A stretch of 64,000 nt of DNA from Polytrichum commune (Eukaryota > Streptophyta > Polytrichopsida > Polytrichales > Polytrichaceae): positions 14,012,001 to 14,076,000 of the forward strand of contig OX485803.1 of assembly GCA_950295325.1 (NCBI GenBank), written 5' to 3'. The notes below the pieces were generated by a model. It did no database searches and was not told the origin of the DNA. It saw nothing but the letters and a program-made list of their open reading frames with translations. Positions within the stretch are counted from its first letter, which is position 1; the number at the start of each line of letters is the position of its first letter. A program made the position numbers and the translations under genes. Shown piece after piece: positions 26,202-46,290 of the stretch.

Positions 26202-26426
26202 CGTGAAAAAAACCGCGTGAGTGAGTGAATGTAGAAATGCGTGAGTGAATGTAGAAATCAGCAATTGAATCTGGAAAAAAAATTGCGAGGGTTCCCCCAC
26301 AATTTGCCCTGCCCTCCCAAACCCCCTGAGACCCGCGCGGTGCCGCTGTCCTTGGGACGGCAACAAGGTCTCGGGTCCCTTTGTGGTGGGAGGAGAGGAA
26401 AGTGAGGGGAACTAAAGCCCCACGGC

Positions 26427-26436
26427 TTTATATAGG
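26427..26436 (-). promoter_or_regulatory. TATA box of kinase copy 1
   Basis: CCTATATAAAG on the minus strand, about 230 bp upstream of the start codon and just downstream of the GGACGG array at 26,505-26,885. Confidence 0.65.
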
Positions 26437-26504
26437 CAAAGGGGTGCACAATCATTATGGGATCCCGGTCAGATTTGACATGGGGCACGAAAAGGACGTA
26501 TGGG

Positions 26505-26885
26505 GAACGTGGGAACGCGGGAACACGGGGGCGGGCGGAGGGAATGAGGGGGCGGACGTAGGGGAACTCGGGAGGGAACGCGGGCGGACGGAAGGGAACG
26601 GGAGGGAACATGGGGCGGACGGGAGGGAACGTGGGGCGGATGGGAGGGAACGTGGGGCGGACGGGAGGGGAACGTGGGGCGGACGGGAGGGGAACGCGGT
26701 AGGGAACGAGGGCGGACGGAAGGGAACGGGGAGCGGACGAGAGGGAACGGGAGGGGAACGCTGTAGGGAACGCGGGCGGACGGAAGGGAACGGGAGGAAA
26801 CGTGAACGCACGGAGGGGAACGTGGGGCGGACGGGTGTGGAACGTGAGGCGGACGGGAGGGAACGGGGTTGAAGGGGGGCAGGGG
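26505..26885 (+). repeat. GGACGG minisatellite upstream of kinase copy 1
   Basis: Units such as GGGCGGACGGGAGGGAACGT. It is immediately 5' of the minus-strand kinase promoter. It corresponds to 28,440-28,925 in copy 2, there on the other strand. Confidence 0.85.
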
Positions 26886-26917
26886 AACAACGTGGAATTG
26901 CGGCCATGTATTTTCTG

Positions 26918-27045
26918 GCAGTAGAAATATTATTGCATATTCATGTAGAGGACTTCATTACCTATCCATGGATACCAAGAACTCATTTTTTGGACTTCAT
27001 ATGAATTTTTTAGAGCCAAAAAACGGACACTATGTCTAAACTTTT
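26918..27045 (+). repeat. D repeat, copy 2
   Basis: Same segment as 23,420-23,560 in the same orientation, so the inverted kinase cassette of hAT copy 1 is flanked by direct repeats. Confidence 0.8.
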
Positions 27046-27065
27046 TAAAAAAAATGTAAATGACC

Positions 27066-27572
27066 GAGTTCACACTATGGCCGTCCAAGTCGAGAGGCCG
27101 TGCGATTGAGTGGCCCAACTTTGTTGAGAGTCCAAAGAAATGAACTGAAAATAGCCAATAAAATATAGTAAGGGTAGCCTTAGTTGGGCATAGTGTGAAG
27201 CCTCCAAAGGCCAAGCGCAAAGTCCAAACTCAAAGGAGCATGCCACTTTATTCCTTGCTCAAAATAACCTCTCCAATCTAACGGCCAAGATCTTGTCAAT
27301 GATTGATTATTTTAATGAAAAAAAAGTTTGGCCTTTCGACGGAAGTTTGGGTTGAGCATTTTGCTATACCCAAACTTTGCTCGAGAGGCCGAACTCTTGG
27401 CGCCATAACTTCCTAAAAGTGTTGCCACCTAGGCTCTTTTGGAGGCCACGTCCTTTGGACTTCGGCCTCTAGTGTGAAGGCCGAGAGGACGGACTTTGGG
27501 CATTTCAGCATTTTCATTGGTCCAAATGTTGAACCTCTCAAAGTTTGGCCATATTGTGAACCGGCCCTTAGA
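27066..27572. mobile_element. Possible MITE with imperfect GTTCACACTATGGCC ends
   Basis: Left border GTTCACACTATGGCC (27,068) and right border GGCCATATTGTGAACCGGCC (27,552-27,571) are inverted relative to each other. The interior has repeated GAGGCC and CTCCAAAGGCC words and no gene. A second copy without its left edge is at 31,845-32,415. No clear target duplication was found, so assignment is tentative. Confidence 0.4.
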
Positions 27573-27773
27573 TTTGCAATACATGTCTTATTCTTTTTTT
27601 GGCACAAATTGAAAATTCAAATTGAAAATACAACCAACCCAGCCGAAACAGCGCAGCCTAAGTGGAAATCTATAAATAATTCTCATTTGAGGCCTATCCT
27701 TCCAAGTAGGGACTAAGTTGCTACGGGTCACAATAAGACCTTTGACCCCCCAAATCAAATCAAATTTGTTAAG

Positions 27774-27781
27774 AATGTCAT
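27774..27781 (+). repeat. 8-bp target-site duplication, left
   Basis: AATGTCAT directly before the left end of hAT copy 2, repeated at 43,417-43,424. The same locus without the insertion is seen at 32,612-32,640, where AATGTCAT occurs once (32,619-32,626). Confidence 0.95.
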
Positions 27782-27866
27782 CAGGGTTGTCTATCGCGAC
27801 GTCATGACGGTGTCGTGCCGTCATGTCAGGTCGTGTCGTGACGGACCCCTCCGTCACGACACAATA
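27782..27866 (+). repeat. hAT copy 2 left terminal region with hairpin
   Basis: CAGGGTTGTCTATCGCG, then a stem-loop GTCGTGACGGA-CCCC-TCCGTCACGAC at 27,835-27,860. The GTCGTGACGG word recurs at the right end, suggesting transposase-binding subterminal sites. Confidence 0.8.
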
Positions 27867-28054
27867 GGGTCCACGTAGGGTCAACATAGGGGGAATGGAC
27901 TAGGGTGGGTAAAATACTTACCTTCTTGCCAAGGTGGCGTCCTATGTGGCAGAAAACGCCGACGTGGATGTGCATATTTCCCTTGCCAAGTAAACCATTT
28001 TGCCATTGTGTTTAGGGTTCTGTTAAAATCAAAGTAGAAAAATATGACTAAGGA

Positions 28055-28440
28055 AGGTGTGGGGCGGACGGTGGGGCGGACGGGAGAGGGGGGTGGTGCG
28101 GACGGCGGAGGGGGGTGGTGCAGACGGCGGAGGGGGGTGGTGCGGACGGGGGAGGGGGGTGGAGCGGACGGGGGTGGGGCGGACGGACGGGGGTGGAGCG
28201 GACGGGGGAGGGGGGTGGAGCGGACGGGGGTGGGGCGGACGGACGGGGGTGGAGCGGACGACGGACGGGGGTGGAGCGGACGGGGGAGGGGGTGGAGCGG
28301 ACGGGGGAGGGGGGTGGAGCGGACGGGGGAGGGGGGTGGAGCGGACAGGGGTGGGGCGGAAGGGGGTTGGGAACGGGGGGGAGAACGCTGGAGCGGACGG
28401 GGGAACGCGGGGGCGGACGAAGGGAACGCGGAGGGCTCCG
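28055..28440 (+). repeat. GGACGG minisatellite, terminal array of hAT copy 2
   Basis: G-rich units (GGTGGAGCGGACGGGGGAGG and variants) on the plus strand. It meets the oppositely oriented kinase promoter array at about 28,440, so G-richness switches strand there. Confidence 0.85.
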
Positions 28441-28925
28441 TCCGCCCCAAGTTCCCTCACGTCCGCCCCACGTTCCCCCGCCGTGCGTTCACGTTCCCAC
28501 ACGTTTCCTAACGTCCGCACCCGTTCCCTACCGCGTTCCCTCCCGTCCGCGCCCGTTCCCCCCCAGTCCGCACCCGTTCCCTTCCCGTCCGCCCACGTTC
28601 CCTCCCGTCCGCCCCACGTTCCCTCCCGTCCGCCCCATGTTCCCTCCCGTCCGCGCTACGTTCCCCTCCCGTCCGCCCACGTTCCCCTCCCGTCCGCCCA
28701 CGTTCCCTCCCGTCCGCCCACGTTCCCTCCCGTCCGCCCCATGTTCCCTCCCGTCCGCCCCATGTTCCCTCCTGTCCGCGCTACGTTCCACTCCCGTCCG
28801 CCCCATGTTCCCGTACGTTCCCTCCCGTCCGCGCTCCGTTCCTTTCCGTCCGCCCGTGTTCCCCTACGTCCGCCCCCTCGTTCCCTCCGTCCGCCCCCGC
28901 GTTCCCACGTTCCCCATACGTCCTT
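28440..28925 (-). repeat. GGACGG minisatellite upstream of kinase copy 2
   Basis: On the plus strand this reads as CGTTCCCTCCCGTCCGCCC units of about 21-24 bp. It ends about 55 bp before the kinase TATA box. Open frames through it are repeat products. Confidence 0.85.
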
Positions 28926-28981
28926 TTCGTGCCCCATGTCAAATCCGACCGGGATCCCATAATGATTGTGCTCCCCTTTGC

Positions 28982-28991
28982 CTATATAAAG
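28982..28991 (+). promoter_or_regulatory. TATA box of kinase gene
   Basis: CTATATAAAG, 225-234 bp upstream of the start codon at 29,216, with a conserved leader between. The same box is kept in copy 1. Confidence 0.7.
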
Positions 28992-29215
28992 CCGTGGGGT
29001 TTTAGTTCCCCTCACTTTCCTCTCCTCCCACCACAAAGGGACCCGAGACCTTGTTGCCGTCCCAAGGACAGCGGCACCGCGCGGGTCTCAGGGGGTTTGG
29101 GAGGGCAGGGCAAATTGTGGGGGAACCCTCGCAATTTTTTTTCCAGATTCACGCACTCATTTCTACATTCACTCACTCCTTTTTACATTCACTCACTCAC
29201 GCGGTTTTTTTCACG

Positions 29216-31123
29216 ATGGAGGGGGAGGACATTGCTCCTTACCAAGACGAGGATACGAGGCTGCACCGTGCTTGGCTCCAAAGCACTCCACTTGCGCATA
29301 CTGGAGAGGGTACGGGAAGCGAGGCCGGAAGTGGAAGCACTGCAGCACGTCCCCCACGTCCAGATCCTTTTCGGTTTGACGAAGAGTTCTTTGCAGTTGG
29401 CCATTCAGGAGGCAACCAAACACGTGGAAGCCGTGGGAGTCGGGGAAACAGTGGACATAGAGGGAGAACAGGAAGGGGACCAAGCTCAGGCAGTTCCACA
29501 GATATAAATGCAGCCACTCATGGAGAGTCCGTGCCACCACGATCTCCGACACGGCGGACATCAAGACCGGAGAGCCCTGCACGTGATGTACCTCAGGGTT
29601 CGGAGCATGGTGAAAGACGGGGACAAAAACGCCCAGCAATTTCGGAAGGGACGGAGGAGGGGTCCGGGGTTTCAGGTTCGCAATCAAGGAAAAGGAAAAA
29701 TAGAGGCAAACGCGACCCGCGGATCGATGAGGCTCGAAACCATTGTAGGGTCGTGCTGTTGGAGTGGTTTAGAAATAACAGCATGGTTTATTTGGAAAAA
29801 AAATACCTCAATGATGGTACAAAGGGGTTGGATTTGGTGAGGAATGATTTGATTCTTATTCTCACGGAAGCCACGGCTGGAGCGGAGTTTGAAGATGCTA
29901 GGGGCATGAGCGATTGGGGCACCTGGATTGAACAACAAGCCGTGGAAGCAATCTACAATCCAACAATGGCATATGATGCTGTGCATCCTAGCGAGGGAAG
30001 TAGTAGTGGCAGGAAGTCCGAGCTGTACATGAAGCTAGAGAATTGGAAAAGAGGCGTAATAGCAGCAAAAGGAACATCCGCCCGCAACCTTCCCATTTTT
30101 ATTGACAGGCAGATGGCAGACAACATTGCCACTCAGGGCCGGCAGGGTGTCATATGGTTGCCTAGGAATGCGGAGATCAAAGCCTTGGATAAGGAAATCT
30201 TCCAAGGGACCTTCGGAGTGGTGCGGAGAGTCGCAATTCATGGAGCATCATTCATCCCTAGCTGGATAGAGTGGGCTGGGAAGACCATGAAGGCCACGAA
30301 TAGTTTGGAGAATCGAAAGGAACGTTCAGTTGAAGCATTGGCGTGTCCAGTAGATCATCCTGGGGTAATCAAGCTACAATACCTCAATATGAAAACATAC
30401 GAATCCTATTCGATGTGGTGGAATGGAGGCTCCTTGAAAAACATGAGGATCTATGACTTCAGCGTTCCGGAAACCCACGAGCGCACAATCCTTCACATGC
30501 CTGGGGCAGACTTTGAAGCACGGAAACGGTTGGTTGTATATCGAAGGCATCGAGCTTATTTGGCATGGGCTCTAATGTGCATTGTGGATGTAGTGCACAA
30601 GCATGACGTGTTGCACAATGACCTTAATCCCAACAATGTCATGTTGCATTTCCCACAAGACCGTGAGAACACGGTTTACATTGGTGTGTGTGATTGGGGC
30701 ATGGCATCCTGGGGAGATGAAGACGCACCCTCCAACTATGGAAAAGATTCAGTGGATGAGATGAACAAGCACAAAGCAAAATACAACTGTGCTGGTCCAG
30801 AATTATTCCATGTACGAGGGCAGCGTGGAACATCCACCTCTCCGGTGAGGATGGCTCGGAAACATAGGCACACGTTTCTATCGGAGTCCTTCTCAGTGGG
30901 TGCTTTGGCAAAGAAGATTTATGCCAGGGATGCGACTTCCCCCTTGTTTCAGCTAAACAGTGATCCAAATGGCTTGAATATGCGGTTTGAGTTAGCATTG
31001 GATTCATTGACGAAGACCAATCCAGCGGAAAGGTCAACCATCACACACGTAGTGAACATTTTGAAGTCCCCTCCATACAACATGGTTAACCCGACAATGT
31101 GCTTCCGTGACACTGCAAAATAG
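29216..31123 (+). CDS. Protein kinase-like protein, transposon cargo (635 aa)
   Basis: The first methionine after the TATA box and leader gives MEGEDIAPYQ. Residues 1 to about 215 are hydrophilic, rich in Ser, Arg and Gly, with no domain recognised; a short KRKNRGKR cluster may be a nuclear signal. The kinase domain occupies about 320-630: glycine loop QGTFGVVRR near 330, WAGKTMK supplying a lysine near 354, catalytic loop HNDLNPNNV near 466 (HRD changed to HND, catalytic Asp and Asn kept), and CDWG near 492 in place of DFG. These residues would allow phosphotransfer, but the variants are unusual. AATAAA lies 62 bp after the stop. The frame is uninterrupted while the sister copy has a stop. 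The substrate and role are unknown. It may be captured host sequence serving, or simply riding, the element. Confidence 0.8.
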   Translation: MEGEDIAPYQDEDTRLHRAWLQSTPLAHTGEGTGSEAGSGSTAARPPRPDPFRFDEEFFAVGHSGGNQTRGSRGSRGNSGHRGRTGRGPSSGSSTDINAATHGESVPPRSPTRRTSRPESPARDVPQGSEHGERRGQKRPAISEGTEEGSGVSGSQSRKRKNRGKRDPRIDEARNHCRVVLLEWFRNNSMVYLEKKYLNDGTKGLDLVRNDLILILTEATAGAEFEDARGMSDWGTWIEQQAVEAIYNPTMAYDAVHPSEGSSSGRKSELYMKLENWKRGVIAAKGTSARNLPIFIDRQMADNIATQGRQGVIWLPRNAEIKALDKEIFQGTFGVVRRVAIHGASFIPSWIEWAGKTMKATNSLENRKERSVEALACPVDHPGVIKLQYLNMKTYESYSMWWNGGSLKNMRIYDFSVPETHERTILHMPGADFEARKRLVVYRRHRAYLAWALMCIVDVVHKHDVLHNDLNPNNVMLHFPQDRENTVYIGVCDWGMASWGDEDAPSNYGKDSVDEMNKHKAKYNCAGPELFHVRGQRGTSTSPVRMARKHRHTFLSESFSVGALAKKIYARDATSPLFQLNSDPNGLNMRFELALDSLTKTNPAERSTITHVVNILKSPPYNMVNPTMCFRDTAK

Positions 31124-31185
31124 TTTTTTTTTTTTTTTTTGCAACAATTTTGAATCATACCAATTTTGTAACCGTTGGAGATGTA

Positions 31186-31191
31186 AATAAA
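31186..31191 (+). terminator. Polyadenylation signal of kinase gene
   Basis: AATAAA 62 bp after the kinase stop codon, in a flank conserved in both copies. Confidence 0.55.
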
Positions 31192-31830
31192 GCCATCATT
31201 TTTTCATACAAAACTTGTATATTGTATGAGGTTTATGGATCTTAGTGCAATGTTCATACTACTCCATGAGGCCTTTGCTCCATAATCGAGAAGAAATCTA
31301 TGGGAGGCTAACCAAGGTTCTCGCCTCTCGTGAGGCCACATCCTTCTTTCACATCGTTGTTATCACATCCATGTGCTAAGTTCAAGTTAACTATAGTTGT
31401 TTGTGATATGTCTTGAAAAAATGCAGTTACCTATATTTATTCTAATTTTGGTATGCCACAAAATGTAGTAAACTATAGTTATATCGGTTGTACACGTGAT
31501 CCAAAACATCTCTAAATGTTATCTTTCTTCTACTCCCCACATATTGCACACTATAAATGTTAAACATGTTAACAGTTAACAAAATGGTACTCCCTTCTTT
31601 GTAAATCTGACTCTATAAACGTTAACGGATGAAATACAACCATAATATGGATGATAAAAACTACACATCCAGTTACATTGATTCATATTCACTCGTGATT
31701 TGTAAACTTGATATTGAATAAAGTTTTGATTGGGTGTGCAATTTTATGAATGGTATTCTCTCACAAGGAATCTTCACAATTGCTTATATTTATATTTATA
31801 TAATTCACAATCATTTTTTTTTGGAAGTTT
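31192..31830. other. Kinase 3' flank
   Basis: AT-rich, no gene. Matches the inverted flank at 23,560-24,220. It ends in a short inverted remnant of the D repeat (GGAAGTTTGGACATA). Confidence 0.6.
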
Positions 31831-33468
31831 GGACATAATCTTGGCCGTCCAAGTGAAGAGGCCGTGCGATTAAGTGGCCCAACTTTGTTGATAGTCCAAA
31901 GAAATGAACTGAAAATAGCCAAGAAAATATAGTAAGGGTAGCCTTAGTTGGGCATAGTGTGAAGCCTCCAAAGGCCAAGCGCAAAGTCCAAACCTTTGGC
32001 CATGAACTCCCACGGCCTCTCGGCTTGGATGGCCAAAGTGTGAAGCCTCCAAAGGCCAATCCCAAAGTCCAAACTCAAAGGAGCATGCCACTTTATTCCT
32101 TGCTCAAAATAACCTCTCCAATCTAACGGCCAAGATCTTGTCAATGATTAATTATTTTAATGAAAAAAAAGTTCGGCCTCTCGACGGAAGTTTGCGTTGA
32201 GCATTTTGCTATACCCAATCTTTGCTCGAGAGGCCGAACTCTTGGCGCCATAACTTCCTAAAAGTGTTGCCACCTAGGCTCTTTTGGAGGCCACGTCCTT
32301 TGAACTTCGGCCTCTAGTGTGAAGGCCGAGAGGACGGACTTTGGGCATTTCAGCATTTTCATTGGTCCAAATGTTGAACCTCTTAAAGTTTGGCCATATT
32401 GTGAACCGGCCCTTATATTTGCAATACATGTCTTATTCTTTTTGTGGCACAAATTGAAAATTCAAATTGAAAATACAACCAACCCAGCCGAAACAGCGCA
32501 GCCTAAGTTGAAATCTATAAATAATGCTCATTTGAGGCCTATCCTTCCAAGTAGGGACTAAGTTGCTACGGGTCACAATAAGACCTTTGACCCCCCAAAT
32601 CAAATCAAATTTGTTAAGAATGTCATGGTAGGCCACGTCCGGGGTTTTTTCCAAGTCCCTAAGCATCTGTTTCCATTCAATCCTCCCATACTCTGATTTG
32701 TAATACATGTCATAAAAGCTAATGCAATTATTGTTTTGAAGTCTACCATCAAATGATATGTAAGATCGTATGTTCACTTGTGGTTGGTTCTTTTTATGTA
32801 CCAGTTTAAGCCAATACTAAAATAAAATAAACCTTATTCTATAAAATCTAATGACACTACCATACAAGTTAGTAGAGATGTTGTATATTTTTTAAAATTA
32901 TTCTATATATTTACATAACTACAACTTATAATTTTGTGAAGAATAATACATAATACAATAAAGTTCAAATCAATACCTCTTTTGTGCACTCACATATACT
33001 CATACGGATTTAGTATAGTGCACCCCCCCACCCAAATGATCACTAATGCGGGCCACATTAAATTTAAGCCCACACCAAATCCCTAGTTTAATATCAATGT
33101 GGACCATATTAATTTGCTTTTCTAGAATGTTCTAATTTGTGTAAGGTGTTGGTAAGATATCTTTATGAAGCCTATAGGAACTCGGGGGATGCACTCTACA
33201 TTATGTTTGAGAATCACGTGCGTTCATGACCCCTTCTAAAAACCCCAATGTATACCATAAGTTATATGTCTAAGTAGAGATTGTGCCAACTTGAAGTAGT
33301 CCTCGCGATTTGCGAACGTTTAACTTTCGTTGTAGGCATCGTAAAAAAAAGCGGGTGGGTTTGTTGGAAAGCTGGGAACCTAAACCCTCAAACCATGTAT
33401 GGAAACACTTCTACATGAGTGAGAGAACAAAACAACGGCACATATGTGGTAGCAATTTGGAATGACGT
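31831..33468. repeat. X segment: uninterrupted copy of the hAT copy 2 insertion site
   Basis: No gene. The sequence matches 27,066-27,781 joined to 43,425-44,272 and crosses the insertion point at 32,619-32,626 with a single AATGTCAT. It therefore shows what the target looked like before insertion. The left part holds the MITE-like sequence (to about 32,415); the remainder is AT-rich. Confidence 0.85.
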
Positions 33469-33497
33469 AGGGTTTAGGGTTTAGGGTTTAGGGTTTA
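33469..33497 (+). repeat. Interstitial telomere-like tract
   Basis: About four TAGGGTT units, the plant-type telomere repeat, ending in GGGTTTATGAACC where the next tandem repeat begins. A decayed equivalent is at 45,967-45,990. Confidence 0.85.
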
Positions 33498-33805
33498 TGA
33501 ACCACAAAGGTTGAAGCACAAATATGTGAATTGTCGAATGAAAGGGCAAGGGGATGCGTGTGGGTTGTGAAACCATACGAACCACTAAGGTTGAAGCTCA
33601 AATATGTGAATTGTTGAATGAAGATGGCATTCGGATGCGTAATATGCGTTGTGAAACCATATGGACCACAAAGGTTGAAGCACAAATATGTACTTTGTTG
33701 AATTAATATGACATTCGAATGCGTGTGGATTGTAAAACTATACGAACCTCTAAGGTTGAAGCTCAAATATGTGAATTGTTGAATGAAAGGACAACCCATC
33801 AAATA
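33498..33805. repeat. Tandem repeat, unit about 83 bp, upstream of 186-aa gene
   Basis: Four units containing GGTTGAAGCACAAATATGTG and CGTTGTGAAACCATA. Repeated at 45,990-46,290 before the second copy of the same gene. Confidence 0.75.
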
Positions 33806-33994
33806 TAGAAGCTTCAAAGAGGTTTCCAATGCGGGTGTCGGGGGACTTTTTCAAAAAGTGCAACTAACTTTTTGACTTCACCAACTTTCTTTTTATTCCT
33901 ATTGTGTTGTCTTTATCCTACCAACGAGAATTAGATCCTCTACATCTTGGATTACATCAAATATTGTATATTTCATAAAGTCCTTTGAGCTCAA

Positions 33995-34002
33995 TATATA
34001 AG
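33995..34002 (+). promoter_or_regulatory. TATA box of 186-aa gene
   Basis: TATATAAG 42 bp before the ATG at 34,044. Also present in copy 1 at about 46,499. Confidence 0.6.
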
Positions 34003-34043
34003 TAGAGCATTTAGACTCATACATATAACGAGGGTAAAGTATC

Positions 34044-34604
34044 ATGGATAGGATGGGAGAGAAGAGAGACATGTTTGAGGGTCTAGGATGTGATGAGGAG
34101 ATAGAAAATTTAGGTGAACCCGATATTCCATTCAATCCATCAACCGAGCGTGAGAAAGATGAGAGATGTGCTAGGGATCGATTTCGTGATGAGTATGTCA
34201 TGACTCCCTTCTCACAATCTACACAAGCTTGGAGGATGAGGGCGGAGGAGGACCAACGACGATATGCGGACAACTTTGAGATCGATGCGGTGGAGAATGA
34301 CAACACACAATGCGTGGGTGGAGATCTAAATGATCTGATTGATTTGTGTGCGGATATTTTGGAGAAGCCCGGGGATGTGGATGTGGAGGAGACTTCAATC
34401 GACATTGAAGATGTCAAGGTAGCGGAAGAATCTTCAAGGATTTTGCCTTTTCGTAAGAAGAGGAGAGGATTATCGCCTCATCGGCTACCATTGAAGGAAC
34501 GGATGAAAGACCGAACGATTAGCTATGTTGATTTACTTCGACCGAATCCTCTCCAAAAAATGGACCCTCGACGGAAGCCACAACCATCTACGAGGTTGCC
34601 ATGA
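34044..34604 (+). CDS. Unknown 186-aa charged protein, transposon cargo
   Basis: A single uninterrupted frame starting MDRMGEKRDMF. The first two thirds are acidic with many Asp/Glu and a run of charged residues. The C-terminal third is basic (RKKRRGLSPHR, RRKPQPSTR), which could bind nucleic acid or act as a nuclear signal. No family recognised. It lies between an 83-bp tandem repeat with TATA box and the next GGACGG array. AATAAAG follows at about 34,700. The second copy (46,547-47,101) is broken but keeps the basic C-terminal block almost unchanged, hinting at past constraint there. Confidence 0.6.
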   Translation: MDRMGEKRDMFEGLGCDEEIENLGEPDIPFNPSTEREKDERCARDRFRDEYVMTPFSQSTQAWRMRAEEDQRRYADNFEIDAVENDNTQCVGGDLNDLIDLCADILEKPGDVDVEETSIDIEDVKVAEESSRILPFRKKRRGLSPHRLPLKERMKDRTISYVDLLRPNPLQKMDPRRKPQPSTRLP

Positions 34605-34903
34605 CGGAAGTCAAGTTGACGGAATGAAGTGGAATATTAAATCGTGCATGGTTTGTTCATGTATGTGATTTATAAAGGGCATTTGTACCGTCGTCGCAAT
34701 AATAAAGTCATTACTTGTACATCGTTGTCTCCATAGGGGTGATAATTTGTTGGTCATCATACTACATTGGTTTCTTTGTTGCTTGAGGGATCCTTCATTA
34801 GTTTTGTGTGGATAAGTACACCGGTAATGATATTTAGTGTCACATATATTATTTGCAAAGGGCCTAAGTTAGATGGGGTTCGGATGGAGGGACGCGGGAA
34901 TGT

Positions 34904-35045
34904 GCAGTAGAAATATTATTGCATATTCATGTAGAGGACTTCATTACCTATCCATGGATACCAAGAAATCATTTTTTGGACTTCATATGAATTTTTGAGA
35001 GCCAAAAAACCGAGACTATGTCCAAACTTCCAAAAAAAGTTAAAA
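34904..35045 (+). repeat. D repeat, copy 3
   Basis: Same segment as 23,420-23,560, placed just before the array at 35,058-35,812. Confidence 0.8.
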
Positions 35046-35057
35046 AGTGCAGATTCA

Positions 35058-35812
35058 AAGGAACTCGGGAGCGGACGTATGGGAACGCTAGAGCGGACGC
35101 AGGGGAACTCTAAAGCGGACGTAGGGGAACATGGGGCGGACTTATAGGAACGTTGGAGCGGACGTAAGGGAACATGGAGCGGACGTAAGGGAACATGGAG
35201 CGGACGGGGGGGGGGCGGGTTGGAGCGGACGGGGGGAACGCGGGAGCGGACTGAGGGGAGCGGACGTAGGGAACGAGGGGGCGGACGTAGGGAACGAGGG
35301 GGCGGACGTAGGGAACGAGGGAGCGGACTGAGGGGAGCAGACGTAGGGAACGAGGGGGGGGACGTAGGGAACGAGGGGGCGGACGTTTGGGAACGGGTGC
35401 GGACTGGGGGGAACGCGGGGGGCGGACGTAGGGGACGTTTGGGAACGGATGCGGACGTTTGGGAACGGGGGCGGACTGGGGGGAACGTGGGGGGCGGACG
35501 TAGGGGAACGGGTGCGGACTGGGGGGGAACGGGCGCGGACGGGAGGGAACGGGTGCGGACTGGGGGGAACGCGGGCGCGGACGTTTGGGAACGGATGCGG
35601 ACGTTTGGGAACGGGTGCGGACTTGGGGGGAACGGGTGCGGACTGGGAGGGGAACGGGCGCGGACTGGGAGGGAACGGGTGCGGACTGGAGGGGAACGCG
35701 GGGGGCGGACGTAGGGGAACGAGTGCGGACGGGGACGGGAACGGGTGCTGACTGGGAGGGGAACGGGCGCGGACGGGTGCGAACAGGGTGGGAACGGGGA
35801 GCGGATGGAGGG
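35058..35812 (+). repeat. GGACGG minisatellite upstream of coiled-coil gene
   Basis: About 750 bp of units such as GGGTGCGGACTGGGGGGAAC and GGGCGGACGTAGGGGAACG. It runs directly into a TATA box at 35,813-35,821. Confidence 0.85.
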
Positions 35813-35821
35813 GTATATAAG
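35813..35821 (+). promoter_or_regulatory. TATA box of coiled-coil gene
   Basis: GTATATAAG immediately after the GGACGG array, followed by about 450 bp of leader before the first ATG at 36,275. The leader may hold an intron; no splice pair is certain. Confidence 0.65.
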
Positions 35822-36274
35822 TGGAGGGGACCACTTACATACCCCACTCCACTTCTTGTGGGCGCCCGGACGACCCTCCTCTACTACAGAGTGCGGGGTT
35901 TAGCGGGGTGCTCGGAGGAGTTAAGGATCATTTTATACTTTTTTTACTGACCTGTTTGTGGGTGTGATCCACGTGGACCCGTTCCCTTGTGACGTGGCAT
36001 ATTGCCTTTTTGGCATATTCCTTGTGACGCGCCCAGTCAACTGGCCTCTGCGTGAGCGCTGGTAGCGGGGTGCTCGAAGGGTATGCTGAATTTTTGTAGT
36101 TTAATTTTTAACGACATTTTTGAACTAATTCCACAGCAACACTATTTTGAAGTGTATGCTTGGATGTTTTGTAGCACTATTATGAAGTGCAATTAGTAAT
36201 TTAAAAATTAGAGTTCTAGATTAGAATTAGAAACTACAATTTGGGTGGATCCGGCAAGTGAAGGATTTCCAGAC

Positions 36275-37939
36275 ATGGCAAGTGGAGGATCTAGAGACAT
36301 GGCAAGTGCAAGTGGAGGATCTGGAGACATGGCAAGTGGGGGATCAGGTTGTCACAGATCACATGTACGCAAGGCCGCTGGGTTGGAGTGGGATGTTTAT
36401 GATGACAACACTCAAAAAGCCAGGGCAGATTGGGAGAATGTACCACAACCGTGGTCAGTGAAGACTGCAATGCAGTACGTGGGTTTCCCTCACTTTGATC
36501 GGTTGTGGCCAAGACCTTGTCACGAGCGACACTGCAAGGCCATCAGTGCGAGTTATATGCAGCTTGATGACGTGGAGGCAAAATGGAGATTCCTAACGAT
36601 ACTTAGAAGTATCTCCAATTTGGATAGATGGCCCAAGAGTGCAATTCCAAAGTCGGTGGCGTGTATGATGTATGCGGAGCACGTGTTGCGAGTTAGGGTG
36701 GATTGGTCAAGTTTGGCTACCCTGCATGGTCAAAAATTTGGGGGTATCGGAATTGCATTCACTAAATGTACAGTTCCAGATATTCCATACACTCCCGTTC
36801 CGGAGTGGTTCAGGAGGAATCCTCGACTAGTGGACGAGCCTGGGGCCCCAATTCCAGAGGGTCGGGAACCAAAAAAACCACGTAATCGTAAACGACCAGC
36901 CAATGACGTGCAGATGGCCATCGAGGAGGCGTTTGAGCATATGGATGAGGGCATGGAGGCAAATGTCGAGGTCAACAACCTGATCAACGACGTGGTCCTA
37001 GACGAGGTAAACCTTGGTGAACATGGAGTGGACCCGACGGAGAGCAGAATGGAGGAATTGCGTAAGCAACATGCGTTGGAAATTCGTGAGTATAAAACGA
37101 TGATTTTCGAGTTGGAAAATCGAGTTGCAACACTTACGATGGGGGAGGCTAGCAGTTCAAGTAGTACACCAATTAACCTTCAGTCTTTGGAAGCAGAGAG
37201 GGACGCAGCTTTACAGGAGGCCAAGATTGCAAAATCACAAGCTCTGGAGGTATGTATGAGGAATGAAGTAATGCGAGGAAAGATAGAGGCTTTGCAAAAA
37301 GAGGTGGTGGACATGCAACAACAACTTCAAGTGGTCAATGAAGTGGTTGTTGATCACGAAGCCAAGATTGGCGGACTGGAGGAGCAGAATGCAAGGTTGA
37401 AGAAATTTCTGTTGGATGCGATTGTGGAGCGCAAAAATATGAGGACAAGCACATTGCTTGCTATGGCCAAGGCTCATCAATTTGAAGCTGAATTTGAGAG
37501 CATCCAGAAAGAATGGAACCGCAATCAGAAAATGCGGAATATGATGCTCACGTCATGGCCAGAAGATGAGCAGATGTACCCTAGTAGGTGGGATAGGGAT
37601 AATGAGTGGACATTGCCAAGCGGGAGCATCGATTGGCGTCAAGTGACCGACCCAGATCACCATTGGGATGTGACCCAAGTGCATGAATATCCATTCCGCA
37701 TGAGGGGTGAATTGTTATGGCCAAAATCCACATACAATGGTCTTCGACGGAACCGCATGTGCGATTTGCCAATGTCCATTTGGCCCAGAGGAATGCTATC
37801 AAGTTGGATCATGTCGGGCCCAATTCCATCCACAATGTCTAATAGGGAATATGATCAAGAAACGCCAATGTCCTCATTGCAGATCACCCTTCCACCCTCG
37901 TTTGTACCTCCAATTTGGCCTTCGGGATTACATGCCTAA
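36275..37939 (+). CDS. Coiled-coil cargo protein, N-terminal open frame
   Basis: The open frame starts before the first ATG (36,275), so an upstream exon is possible. The protein has short MASGGSGD repeats at the start, then a Trp-rich region (residues about 30-210), a basic KKPRNRKR block, and a long heptad-rich coiled coil (about 265-420), including QQQLQVVNE and LEEQNARLKKFL. From about 37,707 to 37,939 the same DNA is also open in a +1 frame that encodes a RING-like finger, so the last ~75 residues of this frame are probably out of frame with the original protein. The second copy (48,332-49,372) shows the same arrangement. Confidence 0.6.
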   Translation: MASGGSRDMASASGGSGDMASGGSGCHRSHVRKAAGLEWDVYDDNTQKARADWENVPQPWSVKTAMQYVGFPHFDRLWPRPCHERHCKAISASYMQLDDVEAKWRFLTILRSISNLDRWPKSAIPKSVACMMYAEHVLRVRVDWSSLATLHGQKFGGIGIAFTKCTVPDIPYTPVPEWFRRNPRLVDEPGAPIPEGREPKKPRNRKRPANDVQMAIEEAFEHMDEGMEANVEVNNLINDVVLDEVNLGEHGVDPTESRMEELRKQHALEIREYKTMIFELENRVATLTMGEASSSSSTPINLQSLEAERDAALQEAKIAKSQALEVCMRNEVMRGKIEALQKEVVDMQQQLQVVNEVVVDHEAKIGGLEEQNARLKKFLLDAIVERKNMRTSTLLAMAKAHQFEAEFESIQKEWNRNQKMRNMMLTSWPEDEQMYPSRWDRDNEWTLPSGSIDWRQVTDPDHHWDVTQVHEYPFRMRGELLWPKSTYNGLRRNRMCDLPMSIWPRGMLSSWIMSGPIPSTMSNREYDQETPMSSLQITLPPSFVPPIWPSGLHA

Positions 37940-38570
37940 CGACTGGGTATTAAAGCCATGGGACTTTCCCTTCGATCTTCAAGAGTTTGATGGAGAGAAT
38001 GTTGAGTGGAGTTGGTTATACAATTGTGCCAAGGTTGAGCTACGGCACGAGAACAGAGATGGCGACTGGACACGGAATGCACGTCAAATTTTGTATGTTG
38101 CAGACGAGTTGTATCCCAACAAGCCTCCCGATCATGGCTTGAAAAGATTTTTGTACCAAACTCTTGAATGACATTGGGATTCAACCAGCAGACAATTAAA
38201 GAGAGGCATTCATCCTCCTTGGTACAATGCAGCAGGTCTCGAATCAGTATCGGAGCATGATTTGGAAGAAGATGCAGATGACATGCTTACGGAACGGGAT
38301 CCGAGATATGAATTGCAGTTAGAGAAGGGGTACCACAAGAACAGGCTGCAGTTGGCTGCAATTGATGCACTCTTGCATAGAGTTGCGGATGATGCGGTAT
38401 TGAGATGGCTAAATGGTGGGTCTAGACCACGTAATGCCGTTCCATTGTCTCCTGGTAGTCGTCCATACCTCACCCGTGGAACAACGCGAAGCATGGAAGC
38501 GGGGGAATCATCACGAGCACGACGAGGATCTACTTCAGCTAGAATAGACCTCGATTCAGATTCGGATTAG
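37707..38570 (+). pseudogene. RING-like C-terminal part of coiled-coil cargo gene
   Basis: In the +1 frame relative to the coiled-coil frame, CAICQCPFGPEECY, then SCRAQFHPQC, then CPHC give a RING-like spacing in which the usual first His of C-x-H-x-F-H is Ala. It continues with FPFDLQEFDG and YPNKPPDHGL to a TGA at 38,169-38,171; copy 1 has TGG (Trp) at that codon, so this is a nonsense mutation. After it the frame stays open to 38,570, ending in an Asp/Ser tail (DLDSDSD). RING fingers usually act in ubiquitin ligases. Function here is inferred only from the cysteine pattern. Confidence 0.55.
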
Positions 38571-39269
38571 GCATTTTTGTACCATGTTTAGGAAGTTGTA
38601 TAGGAACGGATGAAGACTTTGGACACAATGAACATATTTCATGTTCAAAGTATATGTAATATAAAGAGGATTTACCGACAAGTTGTCATTTCTAAGATCG
38701 TGTAAAAGATAACATATGGATGCCACATGTTTTAATGTTATTTGAAACATTTAAAAACTTACTTGAATATTAGTAATTCATATGATAGTCTAACCAAAAG
38801 TACTATTGACTACATAGTCAATATTGAATACCACATAAAGATATAATTATATAAAACGGATAGAAAGGTCCTCAAAAAGAGGATGTCACCAACGAAGCAT
38901 GTACAATCGAGCAATAGGGGATTGCAATATTTATAAAAGCATATTCTTTAAGAAGCTCAATAAATAAACATAAAATTCCATTCACAGTAAGAATTATACA
39001 AAATAGTAATTAATAAAGGCATAACATGTTATTGGAGATTAATTGCAATGCCAAATTGACAACCATATTGTATTTTCAAAATTTTAAAAACCATGCAATA
39101 AATAATTTTATTACTATAATAAAATGTTACAACTTCGAAGGTAACGTTCGCTTTGTGGTCTAAATGTCTTACCGAAGGCCCTAAGGTTGTAACTTGTATC
39201 AATTTTGACGTAAGTAATAAATTATGGAAGTACGTGGGAGCACCAAAATACCGCATTTGTGCAAAACCA
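38571..39269. other. Intergenic region between convergent cargo genes
   Basis: AT-rich, no gene. Holds the shared 3' flank of the coiled-coil gene (plus) and transposase (minus). The same sequence lies at 50,985-51,679. Confidence 0.65.
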
Positions 39270-42200
39270 TTACGTTCGAATCCGTACTATGGGATCATTT
39301 GCTTCGACACATCTTGGGTCCTCTTCAGAATCGTCTGTGCTGCAATCATCATCCGTTTGGGGAGTCGCGCTCCGAAGATGCAACTTTCGGTCACGTTGTG
39401 AGAAAATTATCTTCTTAGTCGGCCGGGAGCCCTCTGCATCATGTATGCCATTTTCATCTAGATGTGGTCTACCCTCATCTTCATTGTAGTCTTCAACAAT
39501 AAACGGAAGCGATCTTCCCTGATACCTCTTCCTAGTACGTTTGACACCTCTCGTAGTTCTCTGACGCCCTCCACCCGTACCACGACTTGAGTGCACTTCA
39601 TCTCTACCTCCATCTATAAAAGCATCCCCCGTTGTACTTCCGCCTCCAACTCCAAGGCCACATGTTCCATTGGATTGACTGTGTGGAAGTGAAACTGATG
39701 CGGATGGAATTGCAATTGGTATGTTCTCAACAACATGTCGACGAACAGAATGACGACGTGGCGCCTCTGTAGTAACATTTCTTGAAACATTGTGTATAGC
39801 AACCAAAGTAGCACCCACCGCAGTTGCACGTGAAACACCCAATCTAGAAGTATTGGCAATACTTCGAGTGAGAGGACGACGTTGACCTTGTGCATGCACT
39901 TGCACCGTAGAGGTTGATGCAGTTCTTTGAAGAGCACGGAATCGAGTTGTAGGTATTTCAGGAACATTGGGTGTTTGATCTTCTATACGATGGTTGGATA
40001 TGAGGGAGGCGTCCATGGATTCAGAATGTACTCGGCCTGGAAATGGATCCTGTTGAACGTGCGTTGGCTCATTTGCGGGTAGTACATTGTCACCTTCACC
40101 AAAAGAAAGAGAATCGCTCCGAGGTTGCAAGGAATCTACTTCAATTCCTACATTCTCACTTACCCCCATAGCAACATTATGGGCAGGGCGAAACCCTTGT
40201 CCAATGTGGAGAGTTTCAAAAGGCGGTCCTCCAATAGACCCCTCATGATCGTCATGCATTCCATCGTTATGTTGGGGGACATCCGCTTCATCAAAATCAA
40301 ACACCCCAAGGTTTCCATAACTACCATTGCCATCCTCATCTTCTGAATCATGATTCTCGGAATCGAGGTCATCCAAATCAAAGTCGATGTCATCAACATT
40401 GTTGTCAACATCATTTCCGGCACTATCATTTGGATCCACGTCATCTTCGTTGTCATCTTCTTCGTCAAGGTCATCGTCAGAATGGACCTCATTCAATTCG
40501 TACCATTGCGCAGGTCTTGGGCCCCTCCGATGTCGAATGAGCCTACTATTGGTATATATGTAGACGAGGTCCTCGGCACGACTATGCTTCAAGCGATTGC
40601 GACTCTTGTTGTGAACATATGAGTACATGCTCCAATTGCGTTCACATGCGGATGCGGAATATACTTGTGCAAGGATACGTCTTGCTATTGTTTGGAGGGC
40701 TTTAGCTCCACCTCCCATTGCATCCCACCATTCATGGAGAGGTGCGGCATGCACGCTCGGGTCAGTAGAATCAGCAAAAGGCCCTCGATTTTCAAGGAAA
40801 TCTTGGTACTGGTGGAGGATTTGGACATAAGTGTCCTCATCTTGAGCAAGCCTGCGAAGAACTCGATTTAGGATTGTCCTCGAATTTTCATCCTCATGGA
40901 GTGGGGCCCAACCACGTAGAAGCGGATTTAACATCGCTCCAGCCCAATGTAGATCATTCAACATCAACCTCCATCTATTTTGAAACGTTAGCATAGCATT
41001 TGCAGCAAGCTCAGGGCTTAAGCGAAATGGAGGTTTACTGAATCCACGAATATGGGTTTGTAAATCATGCATGACCCTCCAAGCCATTCCCATTGCAGGC
41101 GCCTTGCCATCAAATACACGAAGAGCTTTAACAACCGGGATCACCATATACAAGAAATTTTCGCACGTGTTCCAGAATCCATCAGAACGTATAAAGCTTC
41201 GTACAGCAGAGCCCTTCATGTAAGAGGTGCGAGATCTCCTCCTCATATCACGCATTAGAGTAGGCCAATCCTCATCAACCACCATTCTTTCCAAAGCATT
41301 GCGTACTTGAAGAAGACGATCTATCATGATGAAGTTCGTTGCAAAACGGGTCTCTACAGGTAGGCGGAGTGAGAGATTTGGTGACAACCTCCGGAATATA
41401 GCTTGAGAAGCATGATGGTTTTTGATAAAAACACAAATATGGCGCGCCTTTTTTACCAACTTTTTCACCCATTCCTCCTTCCCCCAATCTTCTAAAAGGA
41501 GATCTAGGCAATGCGCAGCACATCCTTGAAAATATAGATCGGGATTTGCTTGAATCAAGTCGCGAGCAGCGGAGGCCATAACTGGGGCATTGTCGGTGCA
41601 AATCTGGACCACATTATGTCGACCAACCTTTTCCACAAATGGTTGAATTTGAGCAGCAACGTATACATGATCCTTGTGATTTCCTGTGGTATCAATGGTA
41701 CCCAAGAAAACATCTCCCTTTGTGCCGCATTGGAGAACGTTTAGGAGAGGTCGGTTTTGCACGTTGTCCCATCCATCACAACATATTGTAACACCGTATT
41801 TTTCAACGGAATTCCCCATCTTCTCCTTCACTTGCCTATCTAGGTCAACCTTTTTATCAGTTAACAACTTCGTACGGATGGCATTGTACGATGGTGGTGT
41901 GTAGGCTGGCATTCGATGACGGGCAGTTTCACGCACAGCATGAACAAATGCAGGATGTCTCACAATGTTGAAAGGAATGTTAGCTTCATAAAAAGCCGTT
42001 GCCCATGCTCTATCAAGGAGTTGTTTTGTTGACACATTGAACCCCTCCGTTATGTTGAGTTGACGTAGTTCACGAGGAGGTGTGCCATATATCACAACAT
42101 CAGAATGTTGAGTGGATTGGGACATAAGCAAAGGCTCTGTTTCACTAATTACGGAGTCCGCTATAATAGGCTCCAGAGGTACAATATCTGGCACCGGAGA

Positions 42201-42467
42201 GTCCTCATTTACAATGCCTACATGTAAGGGCACAATGCCTCCGCAATGTTCAAACAAGACCCTAATATGCGGGGGTACCATCCTACATGTGGAAACATCA
42301 CAAGCACCCCCTACAGGAGGTCTATAACCAAGGTGGGCCAACATTCTATTTCCTCGGTAAGATATGACGAACGGGCAAAACCTACATTTAACCTGCCTTT
42401 GTGATTTACCGGGAACCATCCCCTTATCCTCGTACCAATGATCCCATGCATCATTTCGGCGTTGCAT
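39270..42467 (-). CDS. hAT-superfamily transposase (1,065 aa)
   Basis: The frame runs from a splice acceptor at 42,481/42,482 (TTTGCAG); the first methionine is MQRRNDAWDHW at 42,467. An N-terminal BED-type zinc finger (CRFCPF with a later His) is followed by a DUF659-like region. The RNase H-like core has Asp in CCDGWDNV (about 230), Asp in CTDNAPVM (about 293), the CAAHCLDLL C-x2-H box, and Glu in ACERNWS (about 609), within the hAT dimerisation region YVHNKSRNRL. This is the expected D-D-E set. A C-terminal extension of about 400 residues, acidic then Ser/Arg-rich, is unusual for the family. No stop or frameshift was seen. The TATA box and GGACGG array lie upstream at 42,699 and 42,716-43,182. 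It would cut at CAGGGTTG ends and make 8-bp duplications. Confidence 0.88.
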   Translation of the reverse strand: MQRRNDAWDHWYEDKGMVPGKSQRQVKCRFCPFVISYRGNRMLAHLGYRPPVGGACDVSTCRMVPPHIRVLFEHCGGIVPLHVGIVNEDSPVPDIVPLEPIIADSVISETEPLLMSQSTQHSDVVIYGTPPRELRQLNITEGFNVSTKQLLDRAWATAFYEANIPFNIVRHPAFVHAVRETARHRMPAYTPPSYNAIRTKLLTDKKVDLDRQVKEKMGNSVEKYGVTICCDGWDNVQNRPLLNVLQCGTKGDVFLGTIDTTGNHKDHVYVAAQIQPFVEKVGRHNVVQICTDNAPVMASAARDLIQANPDLYFQGCAAHCLDLLLEDWGKEEWVKKLVKKARHICVFIKNHHASQAIFRRLSPNLSLRLPVETRFATNFIMIDRLLQVRNALERMVVDEDWPTLMRDMRRRSRTSYMKGSAVRSFIRSDGFWNTCENFLYMVIPVVKALRVFDGKAPAMGMAWRVMHDLQTHIRGFSKPPFRLSPELAANAMLTFQNRWRLMLNDLHWAGAMLNPLLRGWAPLHEDENSRTILNRVLRRLAQDEDTYVQILHQYQDFLENRGPFADSTDPSVHAAPLHEWWDAMGGGAKALQTIARRILAQVYSASACERNWSMYSYVHNKSRNRLKHSRAEDLVYIYTNSRLIRHRRGPRPAQWYELNEVHSDDDLDEEDDNEDDVDPNDSAGNDVDNNVDDIDFDLDDLDSENHDSEDEDGNGSYGNLGVFDFDEADVPQHNDGMHDDHEGSIGGPPFETLHIGQGFRPAHNVAMGVSENVGIEVDSLQPRSDSLSFGEGDNVLPANEPTHVQQDPFPGRVHSESMDASLISNHRIEDQTPNVPEIPTTRFRALQRTASTSTVQVHAQGQRRPLTRSIANTSRLGVSRATAVGATLVAIHNVSRNVTTEAPRRHSVRRHVVENIPIAIPSASVSLPHSQSNGTCGLGVGGGSTTGDAFIDGGRDEVHSSRGTGGGRQRTTRGVKRTRKRYQGRSLPFIVEDYNEDEGRPHLDENGIHDAEGSRPTKKIIFSQRDRKLHLRSATPQTDDDCSTDDSEEDPRCVEANDPIVRIRT

Positions 42468-42698
42468 GACTTCAACAAAACCTGCAAATAAAAACAAGTT
42501 AGAGCAAGTAACTTTGATCGCATACTAGGTCCTGTTCAAGAGTGCCACAAGGGCAACCCTAATTCACAGTCACTAGATTGGACAAAGTATCCTCTGCATT
42601 CGGGTCTCACGCATTCAATCCTCACTCCTCAAAGGAGATTCAAAAGACTTGAGACACACTATGTCAGTGGAGGCAAAAATGGCACCTTGAACCCTCAA

Positions 42699-42706
42699 TT
42701 TATAGT
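42699..42706 (-). promoter_or_regulatory. TATA box of hAT transposase gene
   Basis: CTATAAAT on the minus strand, next to the G-rich array and about 220 bp before the transposase exon. The intervening leader ends in a splice acceptor, so a 5' exon with an intron is likely. Confidence 0.6.
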
Positions 42707-42715
42707 ATTCGAATC

Positions 42716-43182
42716 GGACTGGGGAGCGGACGGAAGGGGGGGGGACCTGACGAGGAGCGGACGGAGGGGGGGGGGGGGACCGGACGAGGGAGCGGACGGA
42801 CGGGGGGGAGCGGACGGGGGAGCGGAAGGGGGAGCGGACGGACGGGGGGGCGGACGGGGAAGCGGACGGAGGGGGGGGGGGAGCGGACAAGGGAGCGGAC
42901 GGGGGAGCGGACGGACGGGGGGGCGGACGGAGGGGGGGGGAGCGGACGGGGAAGCGGACAGAGAGGGGGAGCGGACGGGGGGGCGGACGGGAGAGCGGAC
43001 GGAGGGGGGGGGGAGCGGACGGACGGGGGGGGGGGGCGGACGGGAGAGGGGGGAGCGGACGGGGTTGGGAACGGGAGCGGACGGGGGGGAACGGTGGCGA
43101 ACGGGGATTGTGAACGGGAGCGGACGGGGGGGAACGGGGGCGAACGGGGGTTGGGAACGGAGGCGGACGGGGGGGCGGACGG
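42716..43182 (+). repeat. GGACGG minisatellite upstream of transposase
   Basis: Units such as GGGAGCGGACGGACGGGGGG. It separates the transposase promoter from the right terminus of hAT copy 2. Confidence 0.85.
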
Positions 43183-43319
43183 GCTCTAGTAAATTTTTCC
43201 CCACTTTACCTTTACTTTGCTGCCATGTCATCACACGTGGACATTGTAAATCCTACGTGTCAGAAATGGGTTAATGTAATTACACAAAAAAATCGGTAAA
43301 ATTCAAGTCCGTCAGGATA

Positions 43320-43416
43320 AAGACAGCATCCGGCATAATGTCGTGACGGATACGTGTCGTGACGGCACGACATTATGTCGGGATTACCCTCCGTCACGAC
43401 ACAATAGACAACCCTG
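43320..43416 (-). repeat. hAT copy 2 right terminal region with hairpin
   Basis: Read inward it starts CAGGGTTGTCTATTGTG. Arms CATAATGTCGTG (43,334-43,345) and CACGACATTATG (43,366-43,377) form a stem-loop, and several GTCGTGACGG words are present, as at the left end. Confidence 0.85.
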
Positions 43417-43424
43417 AATGTCAT
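43417..43424 (+). repeat. 8-bp target-site duplication, right
   Basis: AATGTCAT directly after the right end of hAT copy 2, identical to 27,774-27,781. Confidence 0.95.
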
Positions 43425-44272
43425 GGTAGGCCACGTCCGACCCTTTTTCCAAGTCCCTAAGCATATGTTTCCATTCAATCCTCCCATAATCTGATTTGTA
43501 ATACATGTCATAAAAGCTAATGCAATTATTGTTTTGAAGTCTACCATCAAATGATATGTAAGATCGTTTGTTCACTTGTGGTTGGTTCTTTTTATGTACC
43601 AGTTTAAGCCAATACTAAAATAAAATAAACCTTATTCTATAAAATCTAGTGACACTACCATACAAGTTAGTAGAGATGTTGTATATATTTTTTAAATTAT
43701 TCTATATATTTACATAACTACAACTTATAATTTTGTGAAGAATAATACATAATACAACAAAGTTCAAATCAATACATCTTTTGTGCACTCACATATACTC
43801 ATACGGATTTAGTATAGTGCACCCCTCCCCCAAATGATCATTAATGTGGGCCACATTAAATTTAAGCCCACACCAATTCCCTAGTTTAATATCAATGTGG
43901 ACCAGATTAATTTGCTTTTCTAGAATGTTCTAATTTGTGTAAGGTGTTGGTAAGATATCTTTATGAAGCCTATGGGAACTCGGGGGATGCACTCTACATT
44001 ATGTTTGAGAATCACGTGCGTTCATGACCCCTTCTAAAAACCCCAATGTATACCATAAGTTATATGTCTAAGTAGAGATTGTGCCAACTTAAAGTAGTCC
44101 TCGCGATTTGCGAACGTTTAACTTTCGCTGTAGGCATCGTAAAAAAAAAGCGGGTGGGTTTGTTGGAAAGCTGGGAACCTAAACCCTCAAAGGCTCAAAC
44201 CATGTATGGAAACACTTCTACATGAGTGTGAGAACAAAACAATGGCACATATGTGGTAGCAATTTGGAATGA
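43425..44272. other. X segment, right half (part of hAT copy 1)
   Basis: No gene. Continues the sequence broken at 27,781 and matches 32,627-33,468 closely. Confidence 0.75.
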
Positions 44273-44277
44273 CGTAG

Positions 44278-45964: not shown

Positions 45965-45965
45965 C

Positions 45966-46290
45966 GTAGGGTTTAGGGTTTAGGATTTATGAACCACAAA
46001 GGTTGAAGCACAAATATGTGAATTGTTGAATGAAAGGGCAAGGGGATGCGTGTGGGTTGTGAAACCATACGAACCACTAAGGTTGAAGCTCAAATATGTG
46101 AATTGTTGAATGAAGATGGCATTCGGATATCTGATATGCGTTGTGAAACCATATGAACCACAAAGGTTGAAGCACAAATATGTACTTTGTTGAATTAAAA
46201 TGACATTCGAATGCGTGTGGGTTATAAAACCATACGAACCACTAAGGTTGAAGCACAAATATGTGATTTGTTGAATGAAAGGACAACCCA
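45966..46290. repeat. Telomere-like tract and 83-bp tandem repeat (copy 1)
   Basis: Counterpart of 33,469-33,805; the telomere-like run is shorter and one unit is altered (GGATTTATG). Confidence 0.75.

Follow-up and report, generated by a model that had tools for sequence, protein, structure and literature searches.

A giant hAT-type transposon, probably autonomous in type, with three accessory genes in the moss Polytrichum commune

A 15.6-kb hAT element with four genes

The window analysed here, a stretch of 64,000 nucleotides of Polytrichum commune DNA (contig OX485803.1, C1:14012001-14076000 of a 408-Mb, 64-contig genome whose seven large contigs are named C1-C7), contains a young element of hAT type of 15,635 bp (window 27782-43416), which we interpret, with a probability of roughly 0.6, as a giant DNA transposon of the autonomous type, encoding its own transposase together with three accessory proteins, namely a protein kinase, a charged protein and a coiled-coil/RING protein (ccRING). 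The element is a hAT by its transposase, its ends and its target-site duplication; to our knowledge, neither its size nor its gene set resembles that of any known hAT. A further contig of the genome, C8, carries an accD-like gene and an rbcL of bryophyte-like appearance.

The original prediction, made from the letters of the window, described matching ends and a perfect 8-bp duplication, and both are present: CAGGGTTGTCTAT stands inverted at the two ends (13 bp, identical), and AATGTCAT lies on both flanks. Short terminal inverted repeats are a hAT feature, with a size range of 5-27 bp according to PMC12506042. In the window, CAGGGTTGTCTAT occurs without mismatch at three sites: 27782 (+), 43404-43416 (-) and 22798 (+), the last belonging to an older copy of the same family. 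Three matches of this 13-mer (at most two mismatches) were reached in 26 of 100 shuffles of the window, and such a number is therefore not unusual. An uninterrupted paralogous target lies within the young element: at 32619-32626 the two flanks join over a single AATGTCAT. The duplications, ends and genes of the young element are the following (window coordinates; aa, amino acids; ORF, open reading frame):

27774-27781, no strand: left target-site duplication, 8 bp, AATGTCAT (flank comparison)
27782-27794, forward strand: left terminal inverted repeat CAGGGTTGTCTAT, 13 bp, zero mismatches
29216-31123, forward strand: protein kinase gene, 635 aa (Pkinase 2.9e-6, 27.3 bits, below the Pfam cut-off of 31.7)
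34044-34604, forward strand: gene for a charged 186-aa protein (ORF)
36275-38408, forward strand: ccRING gene, 713 aa in the sister copy A2, frame broken here
39270-42467, reverse strand: hAT transposase, 1065 aa from ATG (Pfam: DUF659 2.9e-35, Dimer_Tnp_hAT 2.9e-9)
43404-43416, reverse strand: right terminal inverted repeat, 13 bp, identical to the left end
43417-43424, no strand: right target-site duplication, 8 bp, AATGTCAT, identical to the left

The hAT transposase announced as uninterrupted is indeed an open 1065-aa frame, and its DUF659 and Dimer_Tnp_hAT matches both exceed the Pfam cut-off. Its D-D-E residues were read by eye from the translation, and comparison with PDB sequences gave no match at E 0.01. 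The kinase, 638 aa long in the copies A2, A3, B2 and C, has the motifs K, E, HxDL..N, DWG and PE, recognised by eye; against NCBIfam there were only weak kinase-region matches, far below the cut-off, in lanthionine synthetases. No Pfam domain matched the charged protein. The coiled-coil ORF and the RING ORF of the window correspond to a single 713-aa gene in A2, the protein of which matches zf-RING_2 of Pfam (2.5e-5, 24.9 bits) below the cut-off of 27.3. With 15.6 kb and four genes, the element differs from the canonical single-gene hAT, which consists of a transposase alone in a few kb.

The family across the genome

The left-end 20-mer has 560 matches in the genome and the right-end 26-mer has 581 (at most two mismatches), compared to none for the same patterns read backwards. 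A 31-base kinase motif is present in 108 copies and a 32-base transposase motif in 103 (at most three mismatches; none for the controls), and we therefore count about 100 gene-bearing copies; several hundred further copies would, by inference, be short derivatives.

The proposed check of paired ends was run with mismatch-free ends (of the 100 ends listed for each side, 67 left and 99 right ones), covering C1 and the start of C2. The 50 pairings comprise 27 of 0.74-2.73 kb (two of them with a right end in common), one mis-pairing of 11.6 kb, 16 of 13.7-18.4 kb and six over 22 kb, and none of these pairings of perfect ends falls at 2.8-11 kb, the size of a single-gene element. Identical 8-bp duplications, as expected of a hAT, flank 15 of the 16 long pairs, and among the loci listed the kinase motif lies in all 15 and the transposase motif in 14 (the copy without it being C1:72685728); the remaining long pair (C1:72023358-72038170) has neither a perfect duplication nor either gene motif. 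The 15 copies have 13 different duplications, because three copies in a duplicated cluster have the same one, CCAAAAAG; this cluster (C1:21854796-21971964) is apparently segmentally duplicated. Both of the short derivatives tested (1,450 and 740 bp, sampled from the 27 short pairings) have perfect duplications. The outcome named beforehand as refuting, ends confined to short single-gene hATs, was not seen.

Short or single-gene hATs were considered as the true family, and were ruled out by the gap in size among the 50 pairings. DUF659 matched at 132 places in the genome (138 candidates scored), 102 of them strongly (at least 81 bits), and 98 of these 102 lie within 1 kb of a listed transposase motif of the giant hAT family; counts from protein searches such as these are lower bounds, only the best candidates having been scored.

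Gene set, linkage and selection

A transposase motif lies within 40 kb of 82 of the 100 kinase motif loci listed, compared to a mean of 2.1 and a maximum of 8 for random positions (1000 trials); these motif counts supersede an earlier list-based co-occurrence (28 of 43 transposase matches with a kinase). Among the linked loci, the kinase is forward and upstream in 46 (arrangement A), inverted and upstream in 27 (B) and inverted and downstream in eight (C), with one exception. The gene order is kinase(+)-charged(+)-ccRING(+)-transposase(-) in A, the same with the kinase inverted in B, and ccRING(+)-transposase(-)-charged(+)-kinase(-) in C. All four genes are recognisable in the six full copies read, including the window copy, several of them being broken in B1 and C. 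The claim that the cargo belongs to the family is thus borne out by the recurrence of all four genes in each of three arrangements and by the linkage of the kinase loci; the word cargo itself fits less well, and the kinase, charged protein and ccRING are better named stable accessory genes. A host kinase gene lying near hATs by accident was rejected on the observed compared to the expected linkage, and three unlinked kinase loci that were read (of 18) are all fragments of the giant hAT.

Selection was estimated from the ratio of non-synonymous to synonymous substitution rates (dN/dS; Nei-Gojobori, Fisher test). Between A2 and subfamily C, dN/dS is 0.49 for the kinase (p 4e-6; 0.39 for the kinase domain alone), 0.48 for ccRING (p 2e-8, 699 of 713 codons) and 0.53 for the transposase (p 5e-6, 1000 of 1065 codons). 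Between subfamilies, the kinase and ccRING are under purifying selection about as strong as that on the transposase. The kinase of A2 compared with that of B2 gives 0.51 (p 0.02), and the charged gene compared with its relative in a second repeat family, D, gives 0.45 (p 9e-5). Among the copies scored, 42 of 69 kinase genes and 31 of 43 transposase genes are free of stops.

Age of the kinase link

Copies of a 121-aa kinase fragment range from 100 to 76% identity, the next best matches reaching at most 45% (150 candidates out of 180 were scored); hence no host gene close enough to be the parent of the kinase is seen. One weak kinase match (C4:33962007) has an eroded DUF659 match about 3 kb away; when 25 weak kinases were compared with 30 weak DUF659 matches, no other two lay within 10 kb of each other. 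The surrounding locus (C4:33952000-33969000) contains a decayed hAT transposase, in pieces 27-39% identical to that of the giant hAT (about 33%; best E 5e-27), and a kinase about 2 kb away from it (29% identical, E 1e-19), with an empty reversed-sequence control; no relative of the charged or RING protein was detected in this locus. Since a decayed kinase and a decayed hAT transposase adjoin here, the association of the kinase with the hAT lineage probably goes back to a far more ancient ancestor.

Relatives of the accessory genes beside Mutator-like transposases

The charged protein has a separate group of relatives, about 50% identical to it, and in all three of their loci read (D, D2, D3) the relative adjoins a different transposase or its remains. 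Among the listed places of this family D transposase (62 scored of 2521 first-look candidates), five of 62 have a listed charged relative starting within 6 kb. The D transposase shows D, D, CxxH, E and SWIM-like motifs by eye, and its pieces gave no MULE or SWIM match in Pfam. Families D and E are for this reason named Mutator-like only. The right end, inverted repeats and duplication of family D were looked for and not found. On the distal part of contig C4 (C4:41-59 Mb) lie 15 of the 28 listed charged relatives of 48-53% identity, and D3 contains a ParB-like relic (36%) at 16120-16626 of the joined locus.

Element E was bounded by comparison of its two copies, E1 (15,613 bp, C6:9369964-9385576) and E2 (14,939 bp, C7:18927919-18942857). 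Its ends are GAGGGAAGCTATCTTATGAGCG and GGGGAGTGCTATCTTGTGAGCG, and its duplication, GTGGGGGAGG in E2, agrees in 10 of 10 bases there and in 9 of 10 in E1; inverted repeats with duplications of 9-10 bp are those of a Mutator element. Pieces of its transposase are 35-51% identical to the D transposase, in a comparison made with D alone. Element E encodes a kinase (Pkinase 7.4e-7, below cut-off), a protein judged ParB-like from a motif recognised by eye, which Pfam did not match, and, in the C7 copy scanned, an N6_N4 DNA methylase (2.1e-6, above cut-off). A profile of the hAT kinase matches the E kinase with 1.7e-18 overall and 2e-15 in the kinase domain, and the region ahead of this domain with 0.004 (best of 400 shuffles, 0.32). 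With phmmer, in a comparison with the E kinase and with PDB chains, the kinase of the window reaches 58.7 bits for the former and 19.9 for the best of the latter.

The candidates for sharing across superfamilies are a charged relative beside the transposase of D, for which no right end was found, and a kinase, 22% identical, in the bounded E. The original prediction is qualified to this extent, that the charged gene occurs outside the giant hAT family as well, with about 50% identity and beside another transposase.

Interpretation and alternatives

By analogy with hAT biology, the encoded transposase would cut and paste the element via its ends, and the same transposase may also act in trans to move the short derivatives, several hundred in number. 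The accessory proteins would target the host and not the ends of the element, for instance by lifting silencing or by favouring repair or timing. We lean, tentatively and from sequence comparison, towards such a host-directed role, preferably of the anti-silencing type, because relatives of the charged protein and the kinase accompany a Mutator-like transposase, to which help specific to the ends of the hAT would be of no use. On this comparison, helper genes for handling the host may be common to such elements. With a little less than even confidence, we further propose that unrelated giant transposons draw on a common circulating pool (the kinase family, the charged factor, a ParB-like protein and a DNA methylase), that is, a portable host-control kit, the present hAT being the first multi-gene kinase-bearing giant in its superfamily.

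Several observations weigh against these readings. The window copy was called complete; the frame of its ccRING is broken by one base near 37723-37725 compared with A2, so that complete cannot be taken to mean four intact genes. Constraint on the charged gene is not significant within the hAT family (A2 compared with subfamily C, dN/dS 0.78, p 0.45), nor is it on the kinase when A2 is compared with the decayed B1 (0.85, p 0.54), and among A copies the transposase gives 0.71-0.98, not significant and based on few changes; decayed copies in a comparison shift dN/dS towards 1. Unlinked loci make up 18 of the 100 kinase and 19 of the 100 transposase motif loci listed. Two of five weak kinase loci read (L049, L050) are kinase remnants with no match of the giant hAT transposase. 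The kinship of the hAT and E kinases is distant, convincing in the kinase domain and weak ahead of it. Predicted structures are of low confidence and too poor for fold comparison (predicted local distance difference test score, pLDDT, 29 for the kinase and 49.5 for the coiled-coil part).

The main rival to a host-directed role, which we consider unlikely, is that the accessory proteins are transposition cofactors needed to move 15 kb of DNA, through end bridging, phosphorylation of the transposase or replication timing. Linkage of the kinase to the transposase, with both constrained, would fit this, as would the mudrB gene of MuDR, apparently needed for integration according to PMC6446971; the company that charged-protein and kinase relatives keep with another transposase class speaks against it. 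So do the gene-less short derivatives with perfect duplications, although these two tested copies show only that factors supplied in trans suffice for short copies. Chance capture of host genes carried without function, as in Pack-type elements, is improbable here. Plant DNA transposons commonly capture genes (PMC13317346), and a Pack-type element would consist of host-gene fragments with no transposase of its own; the giant hAT, in contrast, has an open transposase and full-length genes under purifying selection, the same set recurs in rearranged orders, no host parent above 45% was seen for the kinase fragment, and the kinase-hAT pair on C4 is far older.

Large size and extra genes would also suit host-beneficial cargo moved between genomes, as in the fungal Starships, and we hold this to be the least probable of the alternatives: the gene set is invariant among the full copies read, the kinase and RING proteins look regulatory, and two of the accessory genes have relatives beside other transposases. 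Large DNA viruses commonly encode enzymes of the kinase, RING and DNA methylase types. The kinase, the RING protein and, in element E, the DNA methylase could on this account be viral leftovers in a descendant of a virus-like or viral-hybrid element, a very improbable origin considering that no ORF tested with Pfam was named capsid or polymerase, and that the kinase and transposase had no relatives in viral contigs, in a search reaching close relatives only.

Comparison with known systems

The usual picture of a hAT is a small element with a single gene. The roughly 100 gene-bearing copies found here, of 13.7-18.4 kb where measured and with a kinase gene selected about as strongly as the transposase and probably linked to it from far back, indicate that large multi-gene machines can evolve in the hAT superfamily as well. 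Ac/Ds, Tam3 and DUF659-type hATs have a C-terminal dimerisation domain, short ends, 8-bp duplications and short non-autonomous derivatives. The giant hAT is like these canonical plant hATs in its transposase, short ends, 8-bp duplications and short derivatives, and unlike them in its 15.6 kb, its three extra conserved genes and its long G+C-rich arrays; Ac measures 4.6 kb (PMC3260210).

A parallel in gene content is found in fungi, where TET/JBP genes occur in 11 transposon lineages, one of them a hAT, and where IS3EU carries an alpha-kinase gene (PMC12730594). The fungal hAT7 and IS3EU thus share with the giant hAT an accessory gene recurring across unrelated transposon superfamilies and, in IS3EU, a kinase gene; they have 7-bp duplications and a dioxygenase, whereas the giant hAT has 8-bp duplications, a Pkinase-type kinase, a RING and a charged protein, and a plant host. 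MuDR with mudrB and VANDAL with vanB/vanC are likewise multi-gene plant DNA transposons, in which the extra gene can be anti-silencing, as is VANC of the VANDAL Mutator elements; they belong to the Mutator superfamily, and no relative of the kinase or the charged protein is mentioned in the passages of PMC6446971 consulted. Relatives of the helper genes beside an unrelated transposase class offer a direct way to ask what the helpers do: if a factor helps different transposases, its target should be the host, as is thought for VANC and the fungal TET. The open genes and the many short derivatives make the giant hAT testable in transgenic moss.

The giant EnSpm of red algae and the KDZ, EnSpm and Sola-1 elements of Ectocarpus are similarly cut-and-paste transposons above 15 kb with several ORFs, and their hosts, like the present one, have a long haploid phase (PMC6431247, PMC12477816). 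They belong to other superfamilies; hATs make up 0.05% in Ectocarpus, no giant hAT is mentioned in the available parts of the two papers, and the word hAT is absent from the main text of the giant-transposon review PMC6431247. The Ectocarpus Sola1-1 encodes one protein combining ParB-like and N4/N6 DNA methyltransferase parts, which resembles two ORFs of element E (PMC12477816). The fungal ToxhAT (14 kb) is like the giant hAT in size and name, but has been reclassified as a probably non-autonomous Tc1/mariner element, single-copy and with a TA duplication (PMC12506042). No giant kinase-bearing hAT appeared in the titles and abstract beginnings of the open-access PMC literature, a scope that does not extend to Repbase or subscription papers.

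The older copy and other features of the window

The young element is nested in an older copy of its own family, with its left end at 22798. The same gene set had been claimed for this copy, and parts of all four genes are indeed present, with the kinase inverted. A search for its right end, extended to 8 kb past the window, found none. The older copy and the tandem repeats of the young one are the following:

22798-27773, forward strand: older copy (arrangement B), left part, with the kinase inverted at about 24288-26210 (reverse strand)
43425-53516, forward strand: older copy, right part, with charged, coiled-coil/RING and transposase parts
46547-47095: charged gene of the older copy
48318-49753: coiled-coil/RING remnant of the older copy
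50727-53516: transposase remnant of the older copy
28070-28906, no strand: G+C-rich GGGGCGGACGG-type tandem arrays, the strand orientation of which switches near 28438
33499-33788, no strand: 84-bp tandem repeat, 3.6 units
35060-35812, no strand: internal G+C-rich tandem array
42715-43183, no strand: right subterminal G+C-rich tandem array

The G+C-rich arrays are nearly missing from the subfamily C copy and from the 740-bp derivative, and are therefore probably dispensable for movement.

Just upstream of the older copy, two relics on the reverse strand resemble proteins of element E: its methylase at 19385-19903 (23%, 5e-9) and its ParB-like protein at 22219-22671 (35%, 3e-21). A 0.97-kb repeat at 49754-50726, 60218-61190 and 61583-62555 is 94-95% identical to a stretch within element B2. 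Inside the young element, at the point where it and the older copy diverge, stands a telomere-like TAGGGTT repeat of 4.3 units (33468-33497).

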